A stretch of 64,000 bases of DNA, taken from contig CP053031.1 in assembly GCA_021496505.1 (NCBI GenBank), positions 3,154,001 through 3,218,000 of the forward strand, in the 5' to 3' direction. Under the pieces are notes generated by a model, which saw only the letters and a program-made list of their open reading frames with translations, was not told the DNA's origin and ran no database searches. Below are positions 1 through 12,153 of this stretch, piece by piece. Numbering within the stretch: the first letter of the stretch is position 1; each line of letters begins with the position of its first letter. A program made the translations under genes and the position numbers. Source of the DNA: Thermoleophilia bacterium SCSIO 60948 (GTDB taxonomy: Bacteria > Actinomycetota > Thermoleophilia > Solirubrobacterales > 70-9).

Positions 1-52
1 ATGGGTACGGATCACCCGGTCGGTCGGCCTACGGCGAGTCGGCTGGATCTGA

Positions 53-382
53 TCAGCCGCGCGACGCGTACATGATCACGGCCACCCCCACCAAGCAGAT
101 CGCTGCCCCAGCGATGTCGTAACGGTCGGGCTTGAAACCGTCGAACACCATCCCCCAGAGAAGGGAACCGACGATGAAAACGCCGCCATAGGCCGCCAAG
201 ACTCGTCCGAAGTTCGTTTCGGGCTGCAAAGCGGCGACAACCCCGTAGATGCCGAGGGCAATGATCCCCAAGGCGGCGACGCCCACGCCCTTGTCCTCCT
301 TGATGGCTATCCAGACCAAATAGGCCCCGCCGATCTCGGCGAGTGCCGCAGCGGCGAAAAAGAGGATGGAGCGACCCGTCAC
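53..382 (-). CDS. YnfA/UPF0060 family small membrane protein
   Basis: Integral membrane protein of the YnfA (UPF0060) family, related in size and topology to small multidrug-resistance transporters; the family's substrate is not settled. The 109 residues form four hydrophobic segments at about 5-28, 33-52, 60-80 and 88-106, the usual length and layout. Family-like stretches are [11 protein letters not shown] near the N-terminus and [15 protein letters not shown] in helix 3. The start is GTG at 380-382, overlapping the TGA of the upstream gene as GTGA, so translational coupling is likely. Both genes read leftward from the operator region at 793-837. With a Cys-containing MerR regulator and a Cys-Cys protein it may be the membrane part of a small metal- or redox-response cassette; that role is inference. 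Confidence 0.9.
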
Positions 383-777
383 GACTTCAATCTTGCCGGA
401 CAGGTCGCCCGGATTTCAGCAGGCCGGGGTCGCGAGCCTGGTCCGCCAGGTCGTCCTGCTCGTACCAGGCCACCCCATCCCGCCGCGAACCCGGCCACCA
501 AGCCGCGCACAGCCCAATCGCCGCCGTCCGGCGCTGACACCGAGAGCTCTAGGTCGTCCCCTTCGGCGAGCGAAAACTCAAAGAACGGGCAGCATGATGA
601 CTCCGCCCGGATGAAGTCCTCAACATCGTTCCGACGCGAGATCGGGAAGCTGAGCTTCGCCTCGCGGCCATCGGCTTCCATCGCGGTCATCATTTGACCG
701 AGTTCGGCCATCTGCTCTCCGCGGTCCGGGAGCTTCGCCGGATCGACCGAGCAGGCAATCGGGATTGCCTCGGGCAT
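379..777 (-). CDS. Small conserved protein with Cys-Cys-Pro-Phe motif
   Basis: About 132 residues, no enzymatic family that I recognise. The start is ATG at 775-777 because a strong ribosome-binding site (AAGGAGG on the minus strand, 783-789) sits just upstream; an open frame extends further but would run through the operator and into merR. Visible features are Cys9, a pair Cys62-Cys63 in the motif [11 protein letters not shown], and a following acidic beta-rich stretch. I recall short actinobacterial proteins with this ECCPFF-type motif near MerR regulators, but cannot give a function. The C-terminal 30 residues are Gly/Pro/Arg-rich and look less conserved. It ends in a 4-nt overlap with the YnfA gene and diverges from the MerR gene, so all three probably answer to the same signal. 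A thiol-based metal-binding role is a guess from the paired cysteines. Confidence 0.75.
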
Positions 778-792
778 TTCAGGCCTCCTTCC

Positions 793-805
793 TTGCGAGT
801 CGCAA
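793..805. promoter_or_regulatory. Perfect 13-bp palindrome in the merR divergent promoter region
   Basis: TTGCGA-G-TCGCAA is a perfect inverted repeat between the ribosome-binding site of the leftward gene and the MerR operator. It could be a second operator or a small hairpin in the leader of the 777-to-53 transcript. No family is assigned. Confidence 0.4.
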
Positions 806-815
806 TAGCCTGGAT

Positions 816-837
816 GCTCAACCCAACTTGAGGTCAA
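816..837. promoter_or_regulatory. MerR/SoxR-type operator overlapping a -35 element
   Basis: On the minus strand, CCTCAA-GTTGGG-TTGAGC (18 bp, 816-833) closely resembles the SoxR/MerR-class operator CCTCAA-N6-TTGAGG. It is joined to TTGACC (832-837), a good -35 element for the leftward Cys-Cys/YnfA transcript. MerR proteins bind inside a promoter with an over-long spacer, and an operator placed immediately downstream of the -35 fits this. I could not identify a convincing -10 hexamer at 19-20 bp. The element lies between the divergent genes starting at 777 and 843, so it probably controls both. Confidence 0.65.
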
Positions 838-842
838 ACTCG

Positions 843-1268
843 ATGTCAGAAATCGAAACGATGCGGATCGGCGAGGTTGCTCAGCGGTCGGGGCTACGCA
901 AGAGTGCCATCCGCTACTACGAGTCCATCGGCCTGCTTCCGAACCCAAATCGGGTGTCGGGTCAGCGCACCTACGAGCCGACGGTGCTTCGTCGTCTCGC
1001 CCTCATCGATGTGTCGCAACGCGCGGGCCTCTCCTTGGATGAAATCCGTGACCTTCTCGACGCCGGGACGGCCCCGATTTCGGACCGAATCCAAGACATC
1101 GCCGCCCGTAAAATGCCTGAGGTAGAGGCGCTGATCGAGCGGGCCGTGGCGATGCGCGAGTGGCTCTCCGCCGCGAGAGGCTGCGAGTGCGAGTCGATAG
1201 ACGAGTGCGGACTCTTCGACCTCCAAGCAGTCAGCCCGGCCGCGGCCGGGCTGCCGATGGCGCGGTAG
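843..1268 (+). CDS. MerR family transcriptional regulator with C-x-C-x5-C sensor motif
   Basis: A 141-residue MerR-type activator. Residues 7-75 form the winged helix-turn-helix (MRIGEVAQRSGLRKSAIRYYE, then the RRLALIDVSQRAGLSLDEI helix), followed by a dimerisation helix to about residue 110. The C-terminus carries Cys114, Cys116 and Cys122 (CECESIDEC), i.e. C-x-C-x5-C. This matches the last three of the four SoxR cluster cysteines and is also compatible with a metal-binding loop, so sensing of a metal ion or a redox signal is plausible; the absence of the first SoxR Cys argues against a standard 2Fe-2S site. Start chosen at 843 (MSEIE); a second ATG at 861 would trim six residues and begin at the HTH. 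It is transcribed away from the Cys-Cys/YnfA pair with the operator between them. Confidence 0.9.
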   Translation: MSEIETMRIGEVAQRSGLRKSAIRYYESIGLLPNPNRVSGQRTYEPTVLRRLALIDVSQRAGLSLDEIRDLLDAGTAPISDRIQDIAARKMPEVEALIERAVAMREWLSAARGCECESIDECGLFDLQAVSPAAAGLPMAR

Positions 1269-1303
1269 CTGCGCTCAAGAACTCCGCTCGGGGCGCTCCT
1301 CCC

Positions 1304-1915
1304 TCACGCCTTCAAGAAATGGCAGTAGAGGAACTGCTGCTCTTGGCCGCCGGGCGTCGTATGCGTCTCGAGACCGCTCGAGACAGGTTGATAGTCCGGC
1401 CCGAGCATCTCCGTCAGCTCTCGGGCGGAGTAGCGAACGGTCGGTAGCCCGCTACACCGCGTCGGCCCCTGCGGGCCGAACGTGGCGAGGATCAGATGGC
1501 CACCGGGTCGCAGCGTTCTTCCCAGCGTCTTCAGATAGGCGGCGCGGTCCTCGGTGGTCGTCATGAAGTGGAACACCGCACGGTCGTGCCAGAGGTCGAA
1601 GCGCCTTCCGAAGTCGTGGACTCTGACATCGGCTTCGACCCATTCGATCTCGCCGGCGTTCGTACTCTTCGCCTGCGCCTCCGCGAGGGCCGCAACTGAT
1701 AGATCCGCCACGGTCACGTCTGTGAAGCCTGCTCGAACCAGCTCGCTCGCCAGGGTCGATGCTCCTCCACCAAGATCGAGGATGCTTGCGTGGCAAGGCA
1801 GATCGGCGGCTTCGATCAAGGCTAGGGACGTGGCCGGGACCGACTCGTACCAGCTGACCTCGGTCGGGTTCTTCTGCGAGTAGACCGTGTCCCAATGCGG
1901 CTGAACTGATCTCAC
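1304..1915 (-). CDS. Class I SAM-dependent methyltransferase
   Basis: About 203 residues with a Rossmann-type AdoMet fold. Motif I is ILDLGGGASTLASEL, the acidic ribose-binding position follows in VTVADLS, the next motif is EWVEADVRVHDF, and the post-motif is LRPGGHLILATF. The N-terminal HWDTVYSQKNPTEVSWYE is typical of a subgroup of small bacterial methyltransferases annotated only as class I; the acceptor is unknown. I chose GTG at 1913-1915; an ATG-initiated extension to 2119 would add 68 Arg/Pro-rich residues with no conservation signal. No clear ribosome-binding site is visible before 1915, so the start is uncertain. The gene converges with merR and stands alone, in the stretch of lower GC on the left side of tRNA-Val. 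Confidence 0.8.
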   Translation of the reverse strand: MRSVQPHWDTVYSQKNPTEVSWYESVPATSLALIEAADLPCHASILDLGGGASTLASELVRAGFTDVTVADLSVAALAEAQAKSTNAGEIEWVEADVRVHDFGRRFDLWHDRAVFHFMTTTEDRAAYLKTLGRTLRPGGHLILATFGPQGPTRCSGLPTVRYSARELTEMLGPDYQPVSSGLETHTTPGGQEQQFLYCHFLKA

Positions 1916-2150
1916 CCGATGGATTGTGACGTTCGCCCTCAGCCTCGACCCGCGCTGATCAGGTGCGGCCCGACGCTCTACTCCACCCAACGCGCGCGCC
2001 AGCGTAGGTTCGTCGCCCCCAGGTCGATGTGGGAAGCGCCCCGAGAGCACCGAAGGACGGCGGGCATCGTTACGGGCACCATTGGGCACCATTGGGCGGG
2101 CGGAGAAAGTCTCCATCACCCAGTGGCCGGGAACCTCGCTCAGCCAGCGA
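1916..2150. other. Intergenic region upstream of the methyltransferase
   Basis: About 235 bases between the methyltransferase start and the tRNA-Val 3' end. No convincing gene is seen. The only structure is a tandem repeat of GGGCACCATT at 2074-2083 and 2084-2093 with the partial copy GGGC after it. The methyltransferase promoter should lie near 1920-1990, but no clear -35/-10 pair was found. If tRNA-Val was used for integration, the att core would border position 2151; no direct repeat of the tRNA 3' end was found in the 2.1 kb visible on this side. Confidence 0.4.
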
Positions 2151-2223
2151 TGCGCGGTACTGGGCTCGAACCAGTGACCCCCTGCTTGTAAGGCAGGTGC
2201 TCTCCCAACTGAGCTAACCGCGC
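2151..2223 (-). tRNA. tRNA-Val (anticodon TAC)
   Basis: A complete 73-nt cloverleaf on the minus strand: acceptor GCGCGGT pairs with ACCGCGC, discriminator A, D arm GCTC/GAGC, anticodon stem CCTGC/GCAGG with loop CTTACAA giving anticodon TAC (reads GUA, valine), and T arm ACTGG-TTCGAGC-CCAGT. The 3' CCA is not encoded. Open frames that cross it encode the usual artefactual peptide of tRNA antisense reads and should be ignored. Confidence 0.97.
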
Positions 2224-2257
2224 GGGCGGCGGCGATTATGGCGACGACGCGTGGCTC

Positions 2258-2692
2258 TCAGGCGTCGAACCGGCCGGCGGCGAGGTCGCGATCGAGCTTC
2301 GCGGCGGCCGAGCGCAGTCGCGCGGCGAGCTCGTCCTCGCTCGGCAACTCGTCGGAGACCACGTCGCCCGCGAGCTCGAGGTTGTGCACCATGCGCTCGA
2401 GCGGGAACCCGCGCCGGCTGAGGATCCCCGACAGCCAGGCGACCTGGGCGTCGAGGTCGGTGACGCGCGAGACGTCGCCGATCGCCCAGTCGAGGAGGTA
2501 CTGGTTGTCGTGCACGCACCAGGCGACTCCGTTGCCCCCGTAGGTCTCGGCCTCGTCGGTGTAGCGCTCGTAGTAGCGGCGGCAGATCTCGGCCGCGAGC
2601 GGCTCGAGCTCGACGTCACGGCCGTCGGCCGTCGTCGCGCTCGCCGGCGGCGGCGCGCCGGAGGGTGGCTCGGTGCGGCGCGAGCCGGTCAC
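2258..2692 (-). CDS. Hypothetical protein, last gene of the GGDEF-EAL-B12 operon
   Basis: 144 residues, family not recognised. The N-terminal 25 residues are low complexity (Pro/Ala/Thr); residues 27-144 look mainly helical, with aromatic clusters (CRRYYERY, WCVHDNQYLLDWA) and two cysteines at about 37 and 59. No signal peptide or membrane segment is visible. The start is GTG at 2690-2692, overlapping the TGA of the ABM-fold gene by 4 nt (GTGA), and that gene overlaps the c-di-GMP enzyme in the same way. The three are therefore almost certainly one transcript with coupled translation, and this protein is probably a partner of, or an output from, the cobalamin/c-di-GMP protein. That link is inference from context only. 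Confidence 0.7.
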   Translation of the reverse strand: MTGSRRTEPPSGAPPPASATTADGRDVELEPLAAEICRRYYERYTDEAETYGGNGVAWCVHDNQYLLDWAIGDVSRVTDLDAQVAWLSGILSRRGFPLERMVHNLELAGDVVSDELPSEDELAARLRSAAAKLDRDLAAGRFDA

Positions 2693-2997
2693 TCGGCGAC
2701 GACCTCGTAGGTGTGCATGTGCTCGAGCTTCTCGAGCTTGATCGCCTCGTCGAGCTCGCCCGGGATCCGGTCGTGTGAGGCCCTGTGATCGGCGCTTCGC
2801 ATGTAGTCGCGGAACGACTCGCGATCCGTCCAGCGGCTGACCATCACGAGCTCGCCCGCGTCGCGGTCGGACTGCCAGACCTGGAGGTCGATGAAGCCCG
2901 CGTGCGAGTCGACCAGGCCGAGGCGATCCCGGAACGCGCTGACGAGCTCGCCCGCCCGCTCGGGCTCGACGCGAAGCCGCGACATCGAGACGTACAT
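2689..2997 (-). CDS. ABM-fold (antibiotic biosynthesis monooxygenase-like) protein
   Basis: 102 residues with the ferredoxin-like ABM/HmoA-type fold: YVSMSRLRVEPERAGELVSAF, then GFIDLQVWQS, LVMVSRWTDRESFRDYMRS and a terminal HTYEVV strand. Proteins of this fold include heme-degrading monooxygenases (IsdG, MhuD, HmoA) and quinol oxygenases. By hand alignment, His75 corresponds to the IsdG heme-ligating His and Tyr65 to its catalytic Trp, while the N-terminal Asn seems absent, so heme degradation should not be assumed. The start ATG at 2995-2997 overlaps the TGA of the upstream GGDEF-EAL gene (ATGA); the stop overlaps the downstream GTG. An open frame reaching back to 3243 is only an antisense-like extension inside the upstream gene. 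Confidence 0.85.
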   Translation of the reverse strand: MYVSMSRLRVEPERAGELVSAFRDRLGLVDSHAGFIDLQVWQSDRDAGELVMVSRWTDRESFRDYMRSADHRASHDRIPGELDEAIKLEKLEHMHTYEVVAE

Positions 2998-5426
2998 CAG
3001 ACCGGTTCCGCGCCCGCGCTCCGAGAGGGAGCGTCGCCGGCCTCGATTCGCGCGGTGAGCTCGCCGACCAGCTCGACGGCGTTCTGGGGCGACTCGGCGA
3101 ACGCGACGTCGAGCCCGTCGAGCGCCTGGTGGGGAACGGCGGCGCCTCCGACCACGACCGGCAGGTCCGGATAGGTCGCCCGCAGCTTGCGGACCGCGGC
3201 GACGAGCGAGCCTCCGGAGCCGGGCATCGTCGCCGACATGCATACGACGTCAGGGCGCAGGCGAACGATCGCCGACATCAGCGAACCGTGCGGGACGTCG
3301 GCGCCGAGGAAGTCGACCTCGAAGCCGGCGCCGTAGATCGCGTCGGACGTCATCCGCAATCCGAGCACGTGCTGCTCGCCCTGGACGGCGGCGAGCAGCA
3401 CCTTCGCCCTGCGCGTCGAGCGCCTCGAGCGCATCCGCTCGAAGATCAGGTTGAGCGCGCGGTCGGAGATCGCCGTCGCCAGGTGCTCGTCGGCGATCCC
3501 GAGCCTGCCGAGCTCCCACTGCTCGCCGACCCAGTGCAGGGCCGGGCCGATCACGCTCGCCTGGAGGATCACCCCGTCGATCCCCTCGTCGAGTCCCTCG
3601 CGGATGATCTCGATCGCCTGCTCGCTCGAGCCCGAGACGATCGCCTCGCGAAACGCCGCGGCGATGCGGCTGATTCGCTCGGGGTCCTCGCCCAGCGCCG
3701 ACGGGTCGAGGCTGGCGGACATCGGGACGAGCTCGCCGGCCGGCGTCGGATGCGCGAACCGGAAGCCCTGGGCCTCGCGGCAGCCCAGCGAGAGCAGGTG
3801 CGCCAGCTGCTCGTTCGTCTCGACGCCCTCGGCGACGACGTCGATGCCGAGCGCCTTGGCCATCGGCAGGATCGCGGCGACGATCGCGGCGTCCTGGGTC
3901 GCTCCTCCGAGTCCGGCGACGAACGAGCGGTCGATCTTCAGCCCGTCGATCGGGAAACGGCGCAGATGGCCGATCGAGGAGAAGCCGGCGCCGAAGTCGT
4001 CGAGCAGAATCCGGAACCCGCGCTCGCGCAGGTCCCAGAGACTCTCCGCCGTGCCGTCGGCGTCGCGGACGAGCGCTTCCTCGGTGATCTCGATCGCCAC
4101 GGAGGAGATCGGCACCCCGGCCGCCATCGCCCGCGCCTCGAGCTGCTCCCCCAGCCCGCGACGCGCCAGCTGGCGCGGAGAGACGTTGATCGACAGGCCG
4201 ACCTCCGCGCCCGCCAGGCGCTCGGAGATCGCCGCGTACTCCGACAGCGCGCGCCCGATGACCCATTCGCCGAGCTCGCCGATCAGGCCCGTCTCCTCGG
4301 CGATGCCGATGAACTCGCCCGGCGCGATCCAGCCCTCGACGGGGTGGCGCCAGCGAGCGAGCGCCTCGACCGCGGTGATGCGGTTGGTCGAGACCTCGAT
4401 GATCGGCTGGAAGTGGAGCATCAACTGCTCGTTGTGGATCGCGCGTCGCAGCTCACGACTCAGGCGCAGCCTGCGGCGCGTCTGCTCCATGAGCTCGCCG
4501 TCGAAGACCTCCGCGCGCGAGCCGCCCTCGGCCTTCGCGCGATACATGGCGTTGTCGGCGCGCGACAGGAGCTCGGCCGGGCCGAGCGCCGCGTCGGTCG
4601 CGATCGCGATCCCGATCGAGAGGCTGACCTGGATCGTCTCGCCGCCGATCTCGAACGGCTCGCGGACGCGCTCGATCAGCCGCTCGGCGAACCCCAGCGC
4701 GCCCTCGTCGGCGCGCACGTCCTCGAGCAGAACGACGAACTCATCGCCGCCCAGCCTGCCGATCGTGTCCTCGGTGCGGGCCGTGTCGGCGATCCGCCGC
4801 GTCACCTCGACGAGAAGCTCGTCGCCGACGGTGTGGCCGAAAGAGTCATTGACCGCCTTGAGGCCGTCGAGGTCGCAGAACAGGACCGCGATCGAGCCGT
4901 CGCGGCGTTTGAGGCGGACGCAGGCGTGGTCGATCCGGTCGAGCAGCAGGCTGCGGTTGGCGAGGCCGGTCAGCGGGTCGTGGTGGGCCACTCGCCGTAC
5001 CTCGTCGCGCGCCTGGAGCGTCTCCGAGACGTCGTTGAGGATGCCCAAGTAGTGCGAGGGCCGGCCATCCGGGCCGGCGACCGGAGAGAGCCAGAGCTCG
5101 TTCGAGAACACGGTGCCGTCGCGCCTCATCGACTCGGTCACGATCCGGGCGTGCCGCCCCGCCGTGAGCGCGTCGGCCATCTCGCCTCGGGCGCGCTCGT
5201 CGGCGGCCGCGGAGTGCAAGAAGTCAACGTCGCGCCCGACCGCCATCGATTCGGGGTATCCGGTCAACTGCTCGAACCCGGCGTTCACCCACACGATCGG
5301 GAAGCCACGCTCACGCGCGTCGGCGACGAAGACGCCGCTGTCGGAGGCCTCGAGAGCCCGCAGCGCCAGTCCCCCGTTGAGCGGATCGAGGGGGTGTGAG
5401 TGATCTGGATCGCTCGCGCTGCTCAT
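2997..5426 (-). CDS. PAS-GGDEF-EAL protein with C-terminal cobalamin-binding domain
   Basis: 809-residue bifunctional c-di-GMP enzyme. PAS at about 25-140 (FPIVWVNAGFEQLTGY). GGDEF at 145-310 with GGDEF at 226-230 and the inhibitory I-site RTED at 217-220, exactly five residues before it. EAL at 320-565 with E354-A-L, N414, E446, D476-D477, K497, E533 and Q553, so both cyclase and phosphodiesterase sites look intact. Residues 580-665 resemble the helical cap and 670-790 the Rossmann part of a B12-binding module: E684-x-H686-x-x-G (variant of DxHxxG, the Co-ligating His), GSL at 714-716 and GG at 760-761. The cap holds W637-x9-E647-H648, the Wx9EH signature of CarH-type photoreceptors, though the residue after the Trp is Glu, not the His found in Thermus CarH. 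Start ATG at 5424-5426 has AGGACGAGG upstream. First gene of a coupled three-gene operon. No membrane segment. Confidence 0.93.
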   Translation of the reverse strand: MSSASDPDHSHPLDPLNGGLALRALEASDSGVFVADARERGFPIVWVNAGFEQLTGYPESMAVGRDVDFLHSAAADERARGEMADALTAGRHARIVTESMRRDGTVFSNELWLSPVAGPDGRPSHYLGILNDVSETLQARDEVRRVAHHDPLTGLANRSLLLDRIDHACVRLKRRDGSIAVLFCDLDGLKAVNDSFGHTVGDELLVEVTRRIADTARTEDTIGRLGGDEFVVLLEDVRADEGALGFAERLIERVREPFEIGGETIQVSLSIGIAIATDAALGPAELLSRADNAMYRAKAEGGSRAEVFDGELMEQTRRRLRLSRELRRAIHNEQLMLHFQPIIEVSTNRITAVEALARWRHPVEGWIAPGEFIGIAEETGLIGELGEWVIGRALSEYAAISERLAGAEVGLSINVSPRQLARRGLGEQLEARAMAAGVPISSVAIEITEEALVRDADGTAESLWDLRERGFRILLDDFGAGFSSIGHLRRFPIDGLKIDRSFVAGLGGATQDAAIVAAILPMAKALGIDVVAEGVETNEQLAHLLSLGCREAQGFRFAHPTPAGELVPMSASLDPSALGEDPERISRIAAAFREAIVSGSSEQAIEIIREGLDEGIDGVILQASVIGPALHWVGEQWELGRLGIADEHLATAISDRALNLIFERMRSRRSTRRAKVLLAAVQGEQHVLGLRMTSDAIYGAGFEVDFLGADVPHGSLMSAIVRLRPDVVCMSATMPGSGGSLVAAVRKLRATYPDLPVVVGGAAVPHQALDGLDVAFAESPQNAVELVGELTARIEAGDAPSRSAGAEPV

Positions 5427-5499
5427 CCCTCGTCCTGCGGAAAGGCTCGGCCGACTGTCTTGCGCCCAATCTATGCGACGCCACGGCGCTGGGGTCCGC

Positions 5500-5518
5500 C
5501 CTACCCATATCGGGTAGG
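5500..5518. promoter_or_regulatory. Perfect inverted repeat upstream of the SDR gene
   Basis: CCTACCC, a 5-nt spacer (ATATC), then GGGTAGG: 7-bp perfect arms ending 10 bp before the SDR start, in the 100-bp divergent region shared with the GGDEF-EAL-B12 gene. It looks like an operator for a dimeric repressor or a leader hairpin overlapping the ribosome-binding region. The factor is unknown. Confidence 0.45.
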
Positions 5519-5528
5519 ACCTCAACCG

Positions 5529-6281
5529 ATGCAGCTGGGGATCGAGGGTCGCGTTGCGCTCGTGCTCGGCGCGAGCAAGGGAATCGGCTTCGCCGTCGCC
5601 GAAGCCCTCGCGCGCGAGGGTGCGGCCGTCGCGCTCGCGAGCCGGTCGGAGGAACGCATCGGCGCCGCTGCGGAGAAGGTCGGCTCGGGCGCGATCGGGA
5701 TCGCCGCCGATACCGACGACGTCGACGCGATGCGCGCGCTCCCGGACCGCGTCGCCGACCGCCTCGGGCCCGTCGAGATCCTCGTCACGAACACCGGCGG
5801 TCCGCCGAAGGGCGTGCTCGCCGACTCCGGTGAGGCCGACCGCGAGGCGGCTCACCGCTCGCTGGTGCTGGCGCCCTGGGCGCTCATCGAAGCCGTGCTG
5901 CCGGGGATGCGCGAGCGCGGCTGGGGGCGGATCGTCAACGTCGGCTCGAGCTCGATCCACGAGCCGATCGACGGCCTGGCGCTCTCGAACGTCTACCGGC
6001 CGGGTGCGCTCGGCCTGTTCGGAACCCTCGCCCGCGAGGTCGCCGCCGACGGGATAACGGTCAACACGGTCGGCACCGGGCGCTTCGCTACCGATCGGCT
6101 GGCCGAGAACTGGGGCTCGCGCGAGCGGATGGAGCGCGACGCGCCGGAGGGCATCCCGGCGGGCAGGCTCGGGCGTCCGGAGGAGTTCGGCGACCTCGTC
6201 GCCTTCCTGTGCTCGGAGCGCGCCGCCTACCTGACCGGGGCGCTGATCCCGCTCGACGGCGGTCTGACGCACTCGATCTGA
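5529..6281 (+). CDS. Short-chain dehydrogenase/reductase lacking the catalytic Lys
   Basis: 250-residue SDR, annotated by similarity to FabG-like 3-oxoacyl reductases. The cofactor motif is LVLGASKGIG (12-20), the structural NTGG is at 88-91, and the C-terminal substrate lid precedes LTGALIPLDGG. Ser141/142 and Tyr156 are in the expected places, but the Y-x-x-x-K signature reads Y156-R-P-G-A160, so the catalytic Lys is replaced by Ala. I recall an actinobacterial/Firmicutes SDR subgroup with LSN-x-x-RPG at this place, so this is probably a lineage feature rather than decay; activity as a classical reductase is doubtful. Start ATG at 5529 just after the palindrome; an upstream in-frame extension to 5400 would overlap the divergent gene's start. 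The ADH gene follows at 89 bp. Confidence 0.88.
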   Translation: MQLGIEGRVALVLGASKGIGFAVAEALAREGAAVALASRSEERIGAAAEKVGSGAIGIAADTDDVDAMRALPDRVADRLGPVEILVTNTGGPPKGVLADSGEADREAAHRSLVLAPWALIEAVLPGMRERGWGRIVNVGSSSIHEPIDGLALSNVYRPGALGLFGTLAREVAADGITVNTVGTGRFATDRLAENWGSRERMERDAPEGIPAGRLGRPEEFGDLVAFLCSERAAYLTGALIPLDGGLTHSI

Positions 6282-6370
6282 GGCCCGCCCGCTCACGGAC
6301 GAGGCGGTCTGACAGGATCGGCCTTCGCGGACCCCGCAGTCTTGAGGAGAGGATCGGTGAGGAGATGAAG

Positions 6371-7471
6371 ATGCGCGCCGCCGTGCTCGAGGAGTTCGGA
6401 CAGCCGCTCGTCGTGCAGGAGGTCGAGCTGCGCGACCCGCAGCCCGGCGAGGTCCTCGTCCGGCTCGTCAACTGCGGTGTCTGCCACACCGACATGTACA
6501 CGGCGTCCGGCGCCGATCCGTCTGGCTACGCCCCGACCGTGCTCGGACACGAGGGCGCCGGAGTCGTCGAGGCGCTCGGCGAGGGCGTCAGCTCGCTCGA
6601 GGTCGGCGACCACGTCGTGACGCTGTTCAGCCCGCAGTGCGGTGAGTGCATCCACTGCGTCGACCCGCGGACGAACCTCTGCATGGCGATTCGTGCCGAG
6701 CAGAACCAGGGCCACCTGCCCGACGGGACAACCCGCCTGCACCGCGGGGACGAGGACATCCGCCACTTCATGGGCACCTCGACGTTCGCCGAGTACACGG
6801 TGATGCCGGAGATCGCGCTCGCGAAGGTGAACCCCGAGGCGCCGCTCGAGGGCGCTTGCCTGTTCGCGTGCGGGCTCTCGACCGGGCTCGGTGCCGCGCT
6901 CAACACCGCGAAGGTCTCCGAGGGCTCGACCTGCGTCGTCTTCGGGGCCGGGATGGTCGGCCTCGGAGCCGTCGCGGGATGTCGGCTCGCGGGTGCCGAG
7001 CGGATCATCTGCGTCGACCTCTCCGACGACCGGCTCGAGCTCGCCAAGGGCCAGGGTGCGACCGACATCTGGAAGGGCGGCGCCGGGACGGTCGAGCGCG
7101 TGCTCGAGGAGACCGACGGCTTCGGCGCCGACTTCACCTTCGAGGCGACCGGGCTCGTCGGCGTGATGCGCGAGGCGGTCGAGTCCGCGCGGATGGCGTG
7201 GGGCCTGTGCACGATCGCGGGCGTCGCCGGCAAGGGCGAGACGCTCGACGTCGTTCCGCGGTTCCTGATCACGGGCCGGCGGATCGCCGGCTCGTCGTTC
7301 GGCGGCGTCAAGGGACGCGAGGGCGTGCCGAAGCTCATCGACCGCTGGATGGCCGGCGAGATCGACGTCGACCCGTTCATCTCGCACCGGATCTCGCTCG
7401 ACGAGGTGAACAGGGGGTTCGACCTGATGCACGCCCAGGACGGGATCCGAAGCGTGATCGGCTTCAGCTAG
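6371..7471 (+). CDS. Class III alcohol dehydrogenase (S-(hydroxymethyl)thiol / formaldehyde dehydrogenase type)
   Basis: Zinc-dependent medium-chain dehydrogenase of about 366 residues. Catalytic zinc ligands are in CGVCHTD, GHEGAG and LFACGLSTG; the structural zinc loop is QCGECIHCVDPRTNLC (C-x2-C-x2-C-x7-C); the NAD-binding motif is VVFGAGMVGLGA followed by CVDLSDDRL. The segment after the structural zinc (AIRAEQNQGHLPDGTTR and MGTSTFAEYTV) is that of class III enzymes, which oxidise the formaldehyde adduct of glutathione; actinobacteria usually use mycothiol instead, so the physiological thiol is open. Two in-frame ATGs exist, 6365 and 6371; AGGAG at 6360-6364 suits 6371. The MBL-fold hydrolase follows 50 bp downstream, consistent with a two-step formaldehyde pathway. 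Confidence 0.92.
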   Translation: MRAAVLEEFGQPLVVQEVELRDPQPGEVLVRLVNCGVCHTDMYTASGADPSGYAPTVLGHEGAGVVEALGEGVSSLEVGDHVVTLFSPQCGECIHCVDPRTNLCMAIRAEQNQGHLPDGTTRLHRGDEDIRHFMGTSTFAEYTVMPEIALAKVNPEAPLEGACLFACGLSTGLGAALNTAKVSEGSTCVVFGAGMVGLGAVAGCRLAGAERIICVDLSDDRLELAKGQGATDIWKGGAGTVERVLEETDGFGADFTFEATGLVGVMREAVESARMAWGLCTIAGVAGKGETLDVVPRFLITGRRIAGSSFGGVKGREGVPKLIDRWMAGEIDVDPFISHRISLDEVNRGFDLMHAQDGIRSVIGFS

Positions 7472-7521
7472 GGAACCGGTCTTCCACCCCCCTTCCTCGC
7501 GACCAGACCAAGGAGACTCGA

Positions 7522-8271
7522 ATGCAGCTGTTGAGGGTCGAGCAGGCCGATTGGCTCTCGAACGCCTACCTCGTCGTCGACCGCCCCGGCGGTAACGGCG
7601 TCCTCGTCGACTCGAACGGCGAGCTCGCCCCGCTGCTCGAGACGGCGGATCGCGATGGCACGACGATCACGCACTTCCTGCTGACCCACTCGCACCCCGA
7701 CCACGTGGTCGACGTGCGCGAGATCGCCGACCGGCTCGGGATCCCGGTGCTCGCGAGCGCGGAGACCGCCGAGCAGCTCGACTTCGACGTTGACGAGACC
7801 TTCGCCGACGGGGACAAGCTGCAGTCGGGTGACCTCGAGGCCGAGGTGATCGCGACGCCGGGCCACTGCGCGGGGCACTGCGCGCTGCTCTTCGACGGGT
7901 CCGACGTGATCACGGCCGATGTGATCTTCAAGGGCACGGTCGGCGGCACGATGGCGCCGCACGCGACCGGTTTCGAGGATCTGAAGAGCTCGATCATGGA
8001 CCGGCTGATGTCGCTCGGCGACGAGGTCCGGATCCACCCCGGTCATCGCGAGCCGTCGACGATCGGAGCCGAGCGCGAGTCGAATCCGTTCGTGCGGATC
8101 TGGCGCGGCGAGGATGGCGAGGGGTCCGAGAGCTGCCGGGTCGGCGGCGAGGACGGCGAGGAGGCGACGCTCATCCTCTGGGCGCCCGACTACGACGGCA
8201 CGAACAAGGCCTGGGTGCGCTTCCCCGACGGCCGTGACGCGATCACCGGCGGCTCACAGATCTCGAGGTAG
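7522..8271 (+). CDS. MBL-fold hydrolase (candidate S-formylthiol hydrolase)
   Basis: 249-residue metallo-beta-lactamase-fold protein. The metal-binding motif is THSHPDH (H-x-H-x-D-H), followed by PGHCAGHCALLF, the bridging Asp in ITADVIFKG and the final His in RIHPGHREPS, the order seen in glyoxalase II-type hydrolases. A C-terminal extension of about 55 acidic and beta-rich residues (from about 195) is not part of the core fold. Start ATG at 7522 has AAGGAGA 7 bp upstream. Its position behind the class III dehydrogenase parallels the mycobacterial arrangement in which an MBL-fold protein follows the mycothiol-dependent formaldehyde dehydrogenase, so S-formylthiol hydrolysis is the best guess. 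Confidence 0.85.
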   Translation: MQLLRVEQADWLSNAYLVVDRPGGNGVLVDSNGELAPLLETADRDGTTITHFLLTHSHPDHVVDVREIADRLGIPVLASAETAEQLDFDVDETFADGDKLQSGDLEAEVIATPGHCAGHCALLFDGSDVITADVIFKGTVGGTMAPHATGFEDLKSSIMDRLMSLGDEVRIHPGHREPSTIGAERESNPFVRIWRGEDGEGSESCRVGGEDGEEATLILWAPDYDGTNKAWVRFPDGRDAITGGSQISR

Positions 8272-8306
8272 GTGGCCGGTACGCGAGGGCTCGGGTCCGC
8301 GGAGGC

Positions 8307-9116
8307 CTAAGCACGGGCCGGGCGCAGGCCCGGCTTCAGGCGCTCGCGGCGGTCCGCGCCCTGCGGCCAGCGAAGGGTGCCGGCACGTGAGCGGATCACG
8401 GCGAGCCACGCGATGCCGCCGATCATCATCGCGATCGCGATCAGCTGCGGCTGGGTGAGCCCGGCGACGACCGTGTCGTTGACGCGCATGATCTCGATCA
8501 GCAGGCGCTCAGTCCCGGCGCCGACGAGCCAGATCGCAAACAGCGCGCCGGGCTGGAAGCGGTCGCGCAGCTGCCACAGCGCCCAGGCGAACAGACCCAT
8601 CACGAGCGTCTCGTAGACGGGCGTCGGGTGGACGGGTACGTCGGTCGGCACGGTGCCGTTCGGGTAGGCCATCGCCCACGGGCCGTCCCACGGGATCCCA
8701 TAGTCGCCGTCACCCGATAGCTGACAGCCGATCCGGCCGACGGCATAGCCGATCGCCAGCGCCGGCGCCGCCATGTCGACGAGCGCGAGGTTCGCGAAAC
8801 CACGCCAGTAGGCCCAGATCAGGACCGCGACCACACCGCCGATCACGCCGCCGAAGAAGACGAGCCCGGCGCCGGAGAAGAGGTTGGCGAAGATCCCTCC
8901 CTCGAGATCGCCGGCGTTCTGAATCAGCCAATCGACGCGCGCTCCGACGAGGCCGCCGATGATCGCCGCGAACAGCGCTTCGTAGGCCCAGTCGACCGGC
9001 TTGCCGAGCTCGACCAGACGCCGGCCCGTGACGATCCCCGAGCCGATGAACGCAGCGGCGAGCGCCAGGCCGAAGGTCTGGAGCGTTATCGGTCCTAGGA
9101 CGATCTCGGGCTGCAT
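8307..9116 (-). CDS. lgt: Prolipoprotein diacylglyceryl transferase
   Basis: 269-residue polytopic inner-membrane enzyme that transfers diacylglycerol from phosphatidylglycerol to the lipobox Cys of prelipoproteins. About seven hydrophobic segments are visible. Diagnostic motifs are GARVDW (about 58-63), the GLVFFGGVIGG stretch (84-94), the signature GRIGCQLSGDGDYGIP with its invariant Arg, and HPTPVYETL in the C-terminal half. Length is normal for the family. The gene starts just before tRNA-Glu and converges with the MBL hydrolase. Several lipoproteins in this window (23129-23578, 26683-27156, 30539-30964) would be its substrates. Confidence 0.95.
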   Translation of the reverse strand: MQPEIVLGPITLQTFGLALAAAFIGSGIVTGRRLVELGKPVDWAYEALFAAIIGGLVGARVDWLIQNAGDLEGGIFANLFSGAGLVFFGGVIGGVVAVLIWAYWRGFANLALVDMAAPALAIGYAVGRIGCQLSGDGDYGIPWDGPWAMAYPNGTVPTDVPVHPTPVYETLVMGLFAWALWQLRDRFQPGALFAIWLVGAGTERLLIEIMRVNDTVVAGLTQPQLIAIAMMIGGIAWLAVIRSRAGTLRWPQGADRRERLKPGLRPARA

Positions 9117-9120
9117 CGAG

Positions 9121-9192
9121 TAGCCCCGACGGGAATCGAACCCGTATCTGCTCCTTGAAAGAGAGCTGTCCTAGCCGTTGGACGACGGGGCC
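9121..9192 (-). tRNA. tRNA-Glu (anticodon TTC)
   Basis: A 72-nt cloverleaf on the minus strand: acceptor GGCCCCG with CGGGGCT (G1-U72 pair), discriminator A, D arm GTCC/GGAC, anticodon stem GCTCT/GGAGC with loop CTTTCAA giving TTC, T arm ACGGG-TTCGATT-CCCGT. No CCA encoded. It lies 4 bp from the lgt start and is likely transcribed ahead of it. Confidence 0.96.
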
Positions 9193-9262
9193 GCGGCGGG
9201 GCGCAGTCTACGCGGCGCGACGGGTGGGGCGAACCCGTCGGCTCCCTGCCCTCTCGACTCTG

Positions 9263-9952
9263 GTGGGAGAGTCTTTCGAGACCGAGGCGCAAGCGCGAGC
9301 GCTGAGGCGCCGGGGTCGCTCGCTGCGCTCGATCGGGTCGGATCTGGGGGTCTCGGCGTCGACGGTGCTCCGCTGGACGAGCGACATCGTCTTGACCCCC
9401 GCACAGGCCGAGGCGAACCTCAGGCGACCGCAGACCGCCGGGAGCATCGACCGCCGCGCCGCTTCCCGCTCCGATGGGGCCCGCCTGGCCCGGTCACGGA
9501 TGCAGGAGACCGGTCGGGTGCGCGCGCGAGCTCGCGACCCGTTGCACCTCGCGGGATGCATGCTCTATTGGGGCGAGGGCTGGAAGAGCAGGAAACAGCT
9601 CCAGCTCGTCAACTCGGACGTCGCGCTCGTGCGTCTGTTTCTCGCCTTTCTCCGCGTCGAGTTCGCCGTCCCCGACGACGACGTTCGGCTCAGGGTCCGA
9701 GCGCATCTCGGGAACGGCCTTTCGCTCGATGAGGTGGAGCGGCATTGGCTCGTGGCCCTGCGACTTCCCGCGGCTTGCCTGCGGGGTTCGCGTGTGGACG
9801 AGCTTCCGGCCTCGAGTCAGCGACGCCGTCCCCGCCGGCTCCCCCTCGGCGTATGCGAACTGAGCGTTGCGCGCAGCACCGACCTCGTCCAGCACGTTCT
9901 CGGCGCGATCCAGGAATACGGGGGCTTCACCGAACCACGCTGGCTCGGCTGA
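9263..9952 (+). CDS. HTH protein with a LAGLIDADG-like C-terminal segment, function unknown
   Basis: About 229 residues from GTG 9263; the ATG at 9155 lies inside the tRNA and is unlikely. Residues 8-42 (ARALRRRGRSLRSIGSDLG, then VSASTVLRWT) are a resolvase/transposase-like helix-turn-helix. A basic linker follows. Residues 94-150 read DPLHLAGCMLYWGEGWKS, then VNSDVALVRLFLAFLR and RLRVRAH; this resembles, in my reading, a degenerate LAGLIDADG core (L-A-G-x-x-x-W-x-E-G). The C-terminus (VQHVLGAIQEYGGF) is characteristic of a widespread actinobacterial/Chloroflexi hypothetical family that I know only as uncharacterised. No partner gene. DNA binding is likely; a role as a WhiA-like regulator or a relic of a homing endonuclease are alternatives. 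Confidence 0.72.
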   Translation: MGESFETEAQARALRRRGRSLRSIGSDLGVSASTVLRWTSDIVLTPAQAEANLRRPQTAGSIDRRAASRSDGARLARSRMQETGRVRARARDPLHLAGCMLYWGEGWKSRKQLQLVNSDVALVRLFLAFLRVEFAVPDDDVRLRVRAHLGNGLSLDEVERHWLVALRLPAACLRGSRVDELPASSQRRRPRRLPLGVCELSVARSTDLVQHVLGAIQEYGGFTEPRWLG

Positions 9953-9996
9953 GTGACGGCCCGCACCGGCTCGCTTCATCACCGCCACTCGCGGGT

Positions 9997-11040
9997 ATGC
10001 GACGCGTCCCGATGCCGAGGACGAAGCGAGTCGACTGCAGTGGGCCCGGCCTCGGCCGGACCAAGCGAGGTAAGGGCTTCTCTTACCACGAGGCCGACGG
10101 CACGCTCGTCACTGACCGCGAGGTGCGCGAGCGGATCGACTCGCTGGCGATCCCTCCCGCCTGGAGCGAGGTCTGGATCTGCCCCGTCCCAAACGGCCAC
10201 ATCCAGGCGACCGGCTACGACTCAGAGGGCCGCAAGCAGTACCGCTACCACGACGATTGGACCAACGACCAGGGGCGGGCGAAGTTCGACGCGATGCTCG
10301 AGTTCGGCCGCGCACTGCCGGCGATGCGAGAGCAACTCGACGCCGACCTGCGACGCCGCAAGATGGACCGCGAACGCATCCTCGCCTGCGCCGTCAGGCT
10401 GATCGACCTCGGCTTCTTCCGCGTCGGGTCGGACCGCTACGCGGACGAGCATCAGACCTACGGCCTCGCCACCGTCGAGAAGCGCCATGTGACGGTTCGG
10501 TCGAAGAAGATCGAGTTCAGGTTCACGGGCAAGGGCAAGCAGCCGGTCGAGCGAGATATCGCCGATCCCACCGTCCGGACCACCGTCAGGAAGCTCAAGG
10601 GGCGTCCCGGGCCCGAGAGAGACGACCTGCTGGCCTACCGCCACAACGGCGAGCCGAACGGCGAGTGGATCGACGTCAAGGCCGCCGACATCAACGCCTA
10701 CCTCAAGGAGGTCACCGGCGGCGACTACTCCGCCAAGGACTTCCGGACCTGGAACGGCACCGTGATCGCCGCCATCCAGCTCGCCGGCGTGGTCGATCGC
10801 GCGACCTCGAAGACCGCTCGCAAGCGACTGAAGAACGAGGCGACCAAGCGCGTCGCCGAGTACCTCGGCAACACACCGGCCGTGGCCCGCTCGGCCTACA
10901 TCGACCCGCGCGTCTTCGACCAGTTCGACTCCGGCGTGACGATCAAGGGCTCGATCGACTACCAGAAGCGCGTCACCGACGACAACGATTTCGTCGACCG
11001 CGACAAGATCGAGGCCGCCGTCCTGAAGCTGATCGGCTGA
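9997..11040 (+). CDS. DNA topoisomerase IB (poxvirus type)
   Basis: About 347 residues. Type IB topoisomerases relax supercoils through a 3'-phosphotyrosine intermediate. The N-terminal domain starts GRTKRGKGFSYHEADG and continues through VWICPVPNGHIQATGYDSEGR; the catalytic domain carries the ARG/Lys core in RFTGKGK, the signature KDFRTWNGT, and the nucleophile Tyr in ARSAYIDPRV. Length fits bacterial members. Two candidate ATGs, 9997 and 10012; I keep the first. It converges on the membrane-protein gene with only 3 bp between stops. Bacterial IB enzymes are accessory, often in actinobacteria and proteobacteria. Confidence 0.94.
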   Translation: MRRVPMPRTKRVDCSGPGLGRTKRGKGFSYHEADGTLVTDREVRERIDSLAIPPAWSEVWICPVPNGHIQATGYDSEGRKQYRYHDDWTNDQGRAKFDAMLEFGRALPAMREQLDADLRRRKMDRERILACAVRLIDLGFFRVGSDRYADEHQTYGLATVEKRHVTVRSKKIEFRFTGKGKQPVERDIADPTVRTTVRKLKGRPGPERDDLLAYRHNGEPNGEWIDVKAADINAYLKEVTGGDYSAKDFRTWNGTVIAAIQLAGVVDRATSKTARKRLKNEATKRVAEYLGNTPAVARSAYIDPRVFDQFDSGVTIKGSIDYQKRVTDDNDFVDRDKIEAAVLKLIG

Positions 11041-11043
11041 GGC

Positions 11044-12153
11044 TCAGCCGGCCGCCGCCTCGGCGCGGCGGCGCTCGATCAGCCGCACGTACTCGTCGCG
11101 CTCGTCGAACGTCGAGCGCATCTCGGCGACGTGCTCCTCGAGGAACTCGCGCCGGTAGACGTCGTCGGTCAGCATCGCGATCGCGAAGTAGAGGCCCGTG
11201 AAGGCCGAGATCGCGCCGGATACGCGCAGCAACTCGGTGGTGAGGATCGCCTGGTGATCGATCAGGTCGAGGCGGATCAGGACGTCGCCCCCGCTGCCGA
11301 TCCAGGCATCCATCAGGTTCGCGTCGACGATCAGCAGCCCGAGAACGACGAAGAACGCGCCCATCAGCAGGCAGACGAGCAGCACCTGGAGCGCCTGGCT
11401 GACGAACAGGACGAGGCCGACGTTGATCCGCTGGCGCCGCGCGAGCGGCGGACCGTCCGGATCGCCGTCGGCCTGGCGCTCGAGACTGCGCACCTCGCCC
11501 GGCAGCCGGCCGATCAGAAAGCCGCTTCCGAGCGCCGCGAGCAGTAGGAACAGCGCGAGAAGCGATCCGATCTGGACGTCGCCGAACGCCTGCCAGACCT
11601 CAGCGGTGAGAAACAGCACGACCGCGAAGATGAGCAGCAGCGGGACGGCCCGCGCGAGAAGCAGGAACGAGACGGCGAGCTGCCCGAGCAGGCGTCGCGC
11701 CGCCCAGCCGACGATCGACACGAGGCCGAGCCCGAGCACCGCGAAGATCAGGCCGAGGATCGCGAGGTTGCCGAGCGCGGTGACCAGCGCGCTCAACCAC
11801 TGACCGCCGAAGACCAGCGGCAGCAGCGCCGGGACGAGGACGAATGCGGTCAGCTCGATCAGGCCGACCTCGTTCGGTGGCTGCAGCGGCCGGCGCGAGC
11901 GAGCGAGGTTGAGCCCGACCCCGACCGCGAGCATGAGCAGCGCCGCGCCAAGCAGCGCCGCCGCGTTCAGGAGCGGCGACCAATCGAGGTTGAGCGCCCC
12001 GAAGAGCTCGGCGACGAAGATCAGCCCCAGCAGACCCGCGGCCCGGTTGAAGACCGCCGTCGACGCGGTGAAGCCGGCGACGAAGAGCGGCAGTCCTCGG
12101 CGGCGAAACCCGCGCTCGAGCTCCGCGATCCGGCGTTCTTCCGCGACCTCCAC
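11044..12153 (-). CDS. Polytopic membrane protein, function unknown
   Basis: About 369 residues with around ten hydrophobic segments between residue 20 and residue 345 (examples: GLLGLIFVAELFGAL, AALLGAALLMLAVGVGL, AVPLLLIFAVVLFL, ALQVLLVCLLMGAFFVVLGLL) and charged ends; the C-terminal 40 residues are soluble and rich in Arg/Glu. No transporter signature or known domain was recognised. The start is GTG at 12151-12153; the open frame extends to 12603 but that part is antisense to the small gene at 12253-12495. A TTG eight codons earlier is possible. The divergent small membrane protein begins 99 bp away. Confidence 0.75.
   Translation of the reverse strand: MEVAEERRIAELERGFRRRGLPLFVAGFTASTAVFNRAAGLLGLIFVAELFGALNLDWSPLLNAAALLGAALLMLAVGVGLNLARSRRPLQPPNEVGLIELTAFVLVPALLPLVFGGQWLSALVTALGNLAILGLIFAVLGLGLVSIVGWAARRLLGQLAVSFLLLARAVPLLLIFAVVLFLTAEVWQAFGDVQIGSLLALFLLLAALGSGFLIGRLPGEVRSLERQADGDPDGPPLARRQRINVGLVLFVSQALQVLLVCLLMGAFFVVLGLLIVDANLMDAWIGSGGDVLIRLDLIDHQAILTTELLRVSGAISAFTGLYFAIAMLTDDVYRREFLEEHVAEMRSTFDERDEYVRLIERRRAEAAAG

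Follow-up and report, generated by a model that had tools for sequence, protein, structure and literature searches.

A candidate split photocobilin operon linking a B12-binding GGDEF-EAL protein to a free-standing bilin-type globin in Thermoleophilia bacterium SCSIO 60948

The 64,000-nucleotide stretch analyzed here, from the genome of the soil-type actinobacterium Thermoleophilia bacterium SCSIO 60948 (contig CP053031.1, positions 3,154,001 to 3,218,000; hereafter the window) contains three genes on the same strand that overlap successively, via TGATG and then GTGA: P0001, a GGDEF-EAL protein with a C-terminal cobalamin module; P0003, a small, diverged ABM-fold protein; and P0002, which its model and aligned residues identify as a free-standing bilin-type globin (Table 1). 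We posit that this operon encodes a light-gated cyclic di-GMP (c-di-GMP) switch, a split photocobilin in which the bilin-binding globin is made as a chain of its own; resting on homology and genomic linkage, this reading has, in our estimate, a probability of roughly 0.6. The original prediction for this locus described P0001 itself correctly but missed the ABM and bilin-globin genes downstream, the less ordinary part of the system.

The P0001 reading frame translates without a stop and all its Pfam domain matches exceed the gathering score, in agreement with the PAS-GGDEF-EAL-B12 protein predicted earlier; W637, E647-H648, and H686 lie exactly at the positions then given. The GGDEF domain with its I-site and the EAL domain are intact, as had also been claimed, and P0001 thus carries both sets of catalytic motifs of a bifunctional GGDEF-EAL protein, the two activities being predicted. 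The genome encodes six EAL proteins; P0001 is therefore one input among several. It also encodes an AdoCbl-forming adenosyltransferase (AdoCbl, adenosylcobalamin), and no cobalamin riboswitch was found near the operon in positions 1-12000 of the window.

Table 1. Features of the three-gene operon and its boundary (window coordinates)
Feature	Position	Strand	Basis
P0001, PAS-GGDEF-EAL-cobalamin-binding protein, 809 aa	2997..5426	-	ORF translation, Pfam, motif check
PAS domain, LOV-like, without photoactive Cys, residues 23-136 (Pfam 23-133)	5019..5360	-	Pfam, PDB alignment
GGDEF domain, residues 147-303, Pfam 6.9e-46; GGDEF 226-230, I-site RTED 217-220	4518..4988	-	
EAL domain, residues 324-560, Pfam 4.2e-70; EAL at 354, DDFGAG and QGF motifs	3747..4457	-	
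B12-binding_2 four-helix cap, residues 590-660, Pfam 1.2e-9	3447..3659	-	Pfam, AF2
W637-x9-E647-H648, with G634 (GxxW and EH signature elements; GEQW 634-637, EH 647-648)	3483..3518	-	motif check
B12-binding Rossmann domain, residues 675-777, Pfam 7.3e-17	3096..3404	-	Pfam, AF2/Foldseek
GEQH 683-686, GxxH element; His686 predicted Co ligand	3369..3380	-	motif check
GADVP 708-712, GxxxP element	3291..3305	-	motif check
P0003, 102-aa protein of ABM fold; its ATG shares TGATG with the P0001 stop	2689..2997	-	
P0002, free-standing bilin-type globin (predicted), 144 aa; GTG overlaps P0003 stop (GTGA)	2258..2692	-	
C59-V-H-D62 of P0002, CX[QR]D bilin-site position	2507..2518	-	alignment; PMC10979010
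W86 of P0002, aligned with corrin-contacting Trp296 of SasPcob	2435..2437	-	alignment; PMC10979010
tRNA gene directly following the operon; marks its boundary and lies outside the system	2151..2223	-	

The light-responsive cobalamin domain is defined in SignatureFinder by four elements, GxxW, EH, GxxH, and GxxxP, which together predict a green-light response: four tested proteins with this signature reacted to 530 nm light and bound AdoCbl, and a fifth, signature-less protein failed to bind it (Yu et al., PMC11796333). P0001 contains all four elements in order (GEQW, EH, GEQH, and GADVP), and its module combines a four-helix cap with a Rossmann fold, as in CarH and the photocobilins, according to Pfam, AlphaFold2 (AF2), and Foldseek. 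Searched against PDB sequences, the module matches SasPcob best (8j2x/8j2w, 2.4e-19), followed by CtMerR (8jbs) and AbDPcob (8j2y), with CarH ranking behind all three; the AF2 model of residues 568-809, with a predicted local distance difference test score (pLDDT) of 84.9, likewise retrieves the photocobilin 8j2w first (Foldseek, 2.1e-16), and CtMerR, AbDPcob, and CarH further down. With matches of this strength, the signature is no chance occurrence. The earlier proposal of a CarH-like AdoCbl sensor on a c-di-GMP enzyme thus has stronger support from sequence and fold than was claimed for it, but “CarH-like” is imprecise because the closest characterized relatives are photocobilins (SasPcob and AbDPcob) and CtMerR. 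P0001 has PAS-GGDEF-EAL in place of the N-terminal MerR domain and has no counterpart of CarH His132. That the latter is replaced by Glu (Glu638, right after Trp637) had been recognized; the doubt that this cast on light sensing carries little weight because SasPcob, AbDPcob, and CtMerR, all three light-responsive, also lack His at this position, having Gln, Tyr, and Arg, respectively (PMC11796333). In light-responsive proteins without His132, the light state is water/hydroxo or Glu-contacted, not bis-His (PMC11796333, PMC10979010). Judged by sequence and model, P0001 is a good candidate photoreceptor, not a CarH, and light sensing by way of vitamin B12 is probable.

Among the best-scoring cobalamin-module loci inspected in 399 genomes of the class (lower-scoring matches were inspected only in part), the PAS-GGDEF-EAL-B12 architecture with the full signature appears in this genome only. 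Also noted were fusions of an HD domain to a cobalamin module with a degraded signature (L107, in which it is HD_5, L109, L110, L114, L122, L124, and L125), and three proteins from one sister genus (L010, L011, and L012) that keep the Wx9EH cap and are possible remnants or cap-only sensors.

The relationship of P0002 to known proteins emerged only from whole-genome profiles and its AF2 model; direct sequence searches gave no Pfam or NCBIfam match and no credible PDB sequence match, and the L075 globin, used as a query against PDB sequences, found nothing. The model, built with ten homologs, is all-helical (pLDDT 90.8, predicted template modeling score 0.85), and its top Foldseek matches are nearly all phycobiliproteins, mainly allophycocyanins (template modeling score 0.62, probability 1.00); hemoglobins, smURFP, and SasPcob (8j2x) are also among the matches. 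A profile of the family, run on 396 genomes of the phylum, recovers globins joined to a cobalamin-binding domain (CBD) in several orders: globin-CBD (L089), globin-CBD-GGDEF (L091), and CBD-globin (L093 and L097). One of these, L093, matches 8j2w at 4.1e-12 and served as the bridge for aligning P0002 with SasPcob. In this alignment, P0002 Asp62 falls on Asp270, which binds biliverdin in SasPcob, and W86 on Trp296, which contacts the corrin (PMC10979010); AbDPcob has His in the Asp62 column, matching the published account. Cys59 occupies the phycobiliprotein attachment position, with C-V-H-D versus CXRD/CXQD. By profile, model, and alignment, P0002 is a homolog of the SasPcob globin that retains both the biliverdin-binding Asp and the corrin-contacting Trp, encoded by a separate gene rather than in the single polypeptide of a photocobilin.

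P0002 and P0003 have few homologs, and these co-occur; named carriers include Solirubrobacteraceae, Thermoleophilaceae, and Nocardioides. The ABM subfamily of P0003 is present in 15 of the 399 class genomes, where it invariably (15/15) adjoins a photoglobin-type gene, and an ABM gene lies within 100 nt of the globin in 18 of the 24 globin loci outside the window. A CBD is found within 3 kb in 13 of these 24 loci, and all 13 carry Wx9EH; the probability of such linkage arising by chance is ~3e-21, a rough binomial figure that allows a generous five such domains per genome and treats loci that are partly non-independent. The partners are MerR-CBD proteins of the CarH type (L064, L066, and L070), CBD-GGDEF proteins (L060 and L072), and stand-alone CBDs (L026, L062, and L069). 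At the CarH-type loci, the regulator (L064 3983-4951, L066 994-1860, and L070 4948-5817) immediately precedes the ABM-globin pair, an arrangement that suggests a bilin-globin acting in trans as the partner of CarH. Three genomes fuse parts of the system, as CBD-GGDEF-ABM (L022/L080) or as globin-CBD (L061 1781-3772 and L113 742-2367), the latter two each with an ABM gene directly upstream. When 47 cobalamin domains are placed on a tree, those partnered with the pair are spread over three or more branches with separate support; the pair has therefore joined different photoreceptors repeatedly or been lost repeatedly. Literature searches found no report of an ABM-globin-B12 association. We tentatively suggest, as a possibility that we rate clearly below even, a three-component light sensor in which the bilin-carrying globin and its diverged ABM-fold helper are an accessory pair portable between AdoCbl photoreceptors. 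Docked on sensors whose outputs differ (CarH repressors, diguanylate cyclases, or the GGDEF-EAL enzyme P0001), the pair would confer a red-light response in trans, and the ABM protein would make or load a bilin through chemistry unlike that of known heme oxygenases.

In the mechanism that we envisage for the operon, the C-terminal module of P0001 would bind AdoCbl base-off/His-on via His686, and Trp637 together with Glu647-His648 would hold the adenosyl moiety at a dimer interface. Illumination would break the Co-C bond, the adenosyl group would leave, and the cap-cap interface would loosen, changing activity in the adjacent EAL and GGDEF domains. P0002, plausibly a separate bilin-binding chain, would dock on the cobalamin module in the manner of the fused photocobilin globin and should widen sensitivity to red light, whereas P0003 would serve the globin or its pigment by making, loading, or protecting a tetrapyrrole. 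The structural models that inform this scheme are of single chains. Since EAL dimers are the active form, an AdoCbl-held dimer beside the EAL domain could favor hydrolysis in the dark; from this and from the analogy with AbDPcob, light likely raises c-di-GMP, although we attach little weight to the sign.

Several observations weigh against the split photocobilin. In the tree, the P0001 CBD has as its nearest relatives HD-domain-CBD proteins, from which the signature has been lost, and the sister genus has GGDEF-EAL-cap proteins without a Rossmann domain (L010, L011, and L012); light sensing is therefore easily lost nearby. The module could instead report the availability of cobalamin or AdoCbl, or a redox or alkylation state, with Wx9EH as ancestral baggage. 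AdoCbl alone does alter the diguanylate cyclase activity of AbDPcob, whose bound dark form is less active than the apo form (PMC10979010), and no light-related gene except the globin was recognized near the operon. P0001, however, keeps all four signature elements even though its relatives lost them; the sole published signature-less control bound no AdoCbl (PMC11796333), and its operon includes a gene for a bilin-type globin; we consider this explanation unlikely. Comparably unlikely, in our view, is that P0001 senses light alone and that the ABM-globin pair, though on the same transcript, forms a unit of its own, engaged, for example, in tetrapyrrole handling or protection from oxidative stress. 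Such a division would fit the 11 of 24 globin loci in which no CBD was found within 3 kb, several of them on short contigs (many of the compared genomes are fragmented), as well as P0003 lacking a confirmed activity and AbDPcob working with little biliverdin (PMC10979010). It fits poorly with the natural globin-CBD and CBD-GGDEF-ABM fusions, the linkage to Wx9EH proteins far above chance, and the retention in P0002 of the corrin-contacting Trp of SasPcob. Where an ABM-globin pair has no CBD, its neighbors are mostly unrelated (5'-3' exonuclease or kinase) or belong to B12 metabolism (methylmalonyl-CoA mutase or MeaB). The Foldseek E-values of P0002 are also weak (0.06-0.4) despite the high probability, the fold being consistent.

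The pigment and the photoreceptive domain itself raise two further questions. P0003 could be a canonical heme-degrading oxygenase that supplies the bilin of P0002 and makes the operon self-sufficient. The genome has no PF01126 heme oxygenase, P0003 has an ABM domain (Pfam, 3.2e-16), the HmuQ model matches it at 4.3e-9, far below its 130-bit cutoff, and heme oxygenase-globin fusions do occur: one, confirmed by Pfam, adjoins a Wx9EH cobalamin protein and GGDEF (L075 7053-9426), and another, judged by eye, joins the globin domain to an apparent heme oxygenase (L094, from the profile of phylum genomes). Tested IsdG enzymes, in contrast, require Asn, Trp, and His (PMC5557675), and in an alignment to 1iuj these positions are Ser6, Tyr65, and His75 in P0003 and Ser/Tyr/His throughout its subfamily. 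With two of the three triad residues replaced, P0003 was not accepted as a plain IsdG heme oxygenase, and the self-sufficient operon is doubtful. P0003 may act differently from IsdG enzymes or merely carry pigment; since it lacks Asn and Trp and the genome lacks PF01126, the bilin source is in doubt, which counts against the split photocobilin. The second ABM protein of this genome (L037, G000:C1:2382138-2382362) keeps the IsdG-type Asn, Trp, and His and, by sequence, could be that source. As for the PAS domain, its PDB matches are led by LOV-type domains (3.6e-20) and the YtvA model matches at 2e-20, below its cutoff, so that it might be taken for the true light sensor of P0001. Yet the adduct-forming Cys and the flavin-contacting residues are replaced (NCRFLQ by DVDFLH, and GIQ by GIL); LOV-type sensing was rejected, and we regard a photoreceptive PAS domain as highly improbable.

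The family of B12 photoreceptors is recent and small, and the enzyme for which control by one has been demonstrated is the diguanylate cyclase AbDPcob. The original prediction presented the union of vitamin, light, and second messenger in one polypeptide as new, but this photocobilin-diguanylate cyclase from Acidimicrobiaceae (PDB 8J2Y) already demonstrates it experimentally, the apparent turnover (kcat) of c-di-GMP synthesis being >10-fold higher after illumination (PMC10979010). AdoCbl-mediated control of c-di-GMP by light therefore has a precedent, and light-gated synthesis of this messenger is not new in kind. Like P0001, AbDPcob joins a light-type cobalamin module to GGDEF in one chain, with a bilin-type globin partner, Wx9EH and ExH, and no His132; its order is GGDEF-CBD-globin, its globin is in the same chain and has His where P0002 keeps Asp62, and it has no EAL or PAS, whereas P0001 adds both and places the sensor C-terminal to EAL. 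Nor do we claim novelty for a CBD-phosphodiesterase (PDE) fusion as such, because PDE is among the domain labels of the SignatureFinder network (PMC11796333). SasPcob (8J2W/8J2X, PMC10979010), the closest solved structure to the cobalamin module by sequence and fold, has both globin residues kept in P0002 and differs in being a stand-alone CBD-globin fusion without an enzyme domain. Thermus CarH and CtMerR (5C8A and 8JBS, PMC11796333) share the four-part signature and an AdoCbl cap with Trp and Glu-His, but have a MerR DNA-binding output; in CarH, His132 is present and the light state is bis-His.

The closest precedent for the split arrangement is BBAG-2, where the bilin-binding globin is likewise free-standing and the B12-binding protein encoded with it is a separate chain (PMC10151467). 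BBAG-2, which has relatives among the Myxococcales, contains an RGMC motif and is linked to HO/FDBR. In P0002 the motifs are CVHD and RGFP and the linkage is to an ABM protein; the text of PMC10151467 makes no mention of a monooxygenase partner. P0003 shares the ABM fold and a His at the catalytic position (His75) with IsdG/HmuQ/MhuD-type heme oxygenases, which have Asn and Trp in the triad where its subfamily has Ser and Tyr; as a candidate bilin-handling ABM protein without the classical triad, P0003 lends itself to direct testing. If the split photocobilin is real, the bilin antenna would be separable from the B12 sensor, a subunit common to transcriptional and second-messenger outputs; red-light control of CarH-type tools could be a matter of coexpressing two small genes; and two families, one that would otherwise pass for a generic monooxygenase and one without annotation, would gain a function. 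Two P0002-type globins with neither an ABM nor a cobalamin gene near them (L067 and L068) lie downstream of an MMPL-type transporter, identified by Pfam in L067 and by eye in L068.

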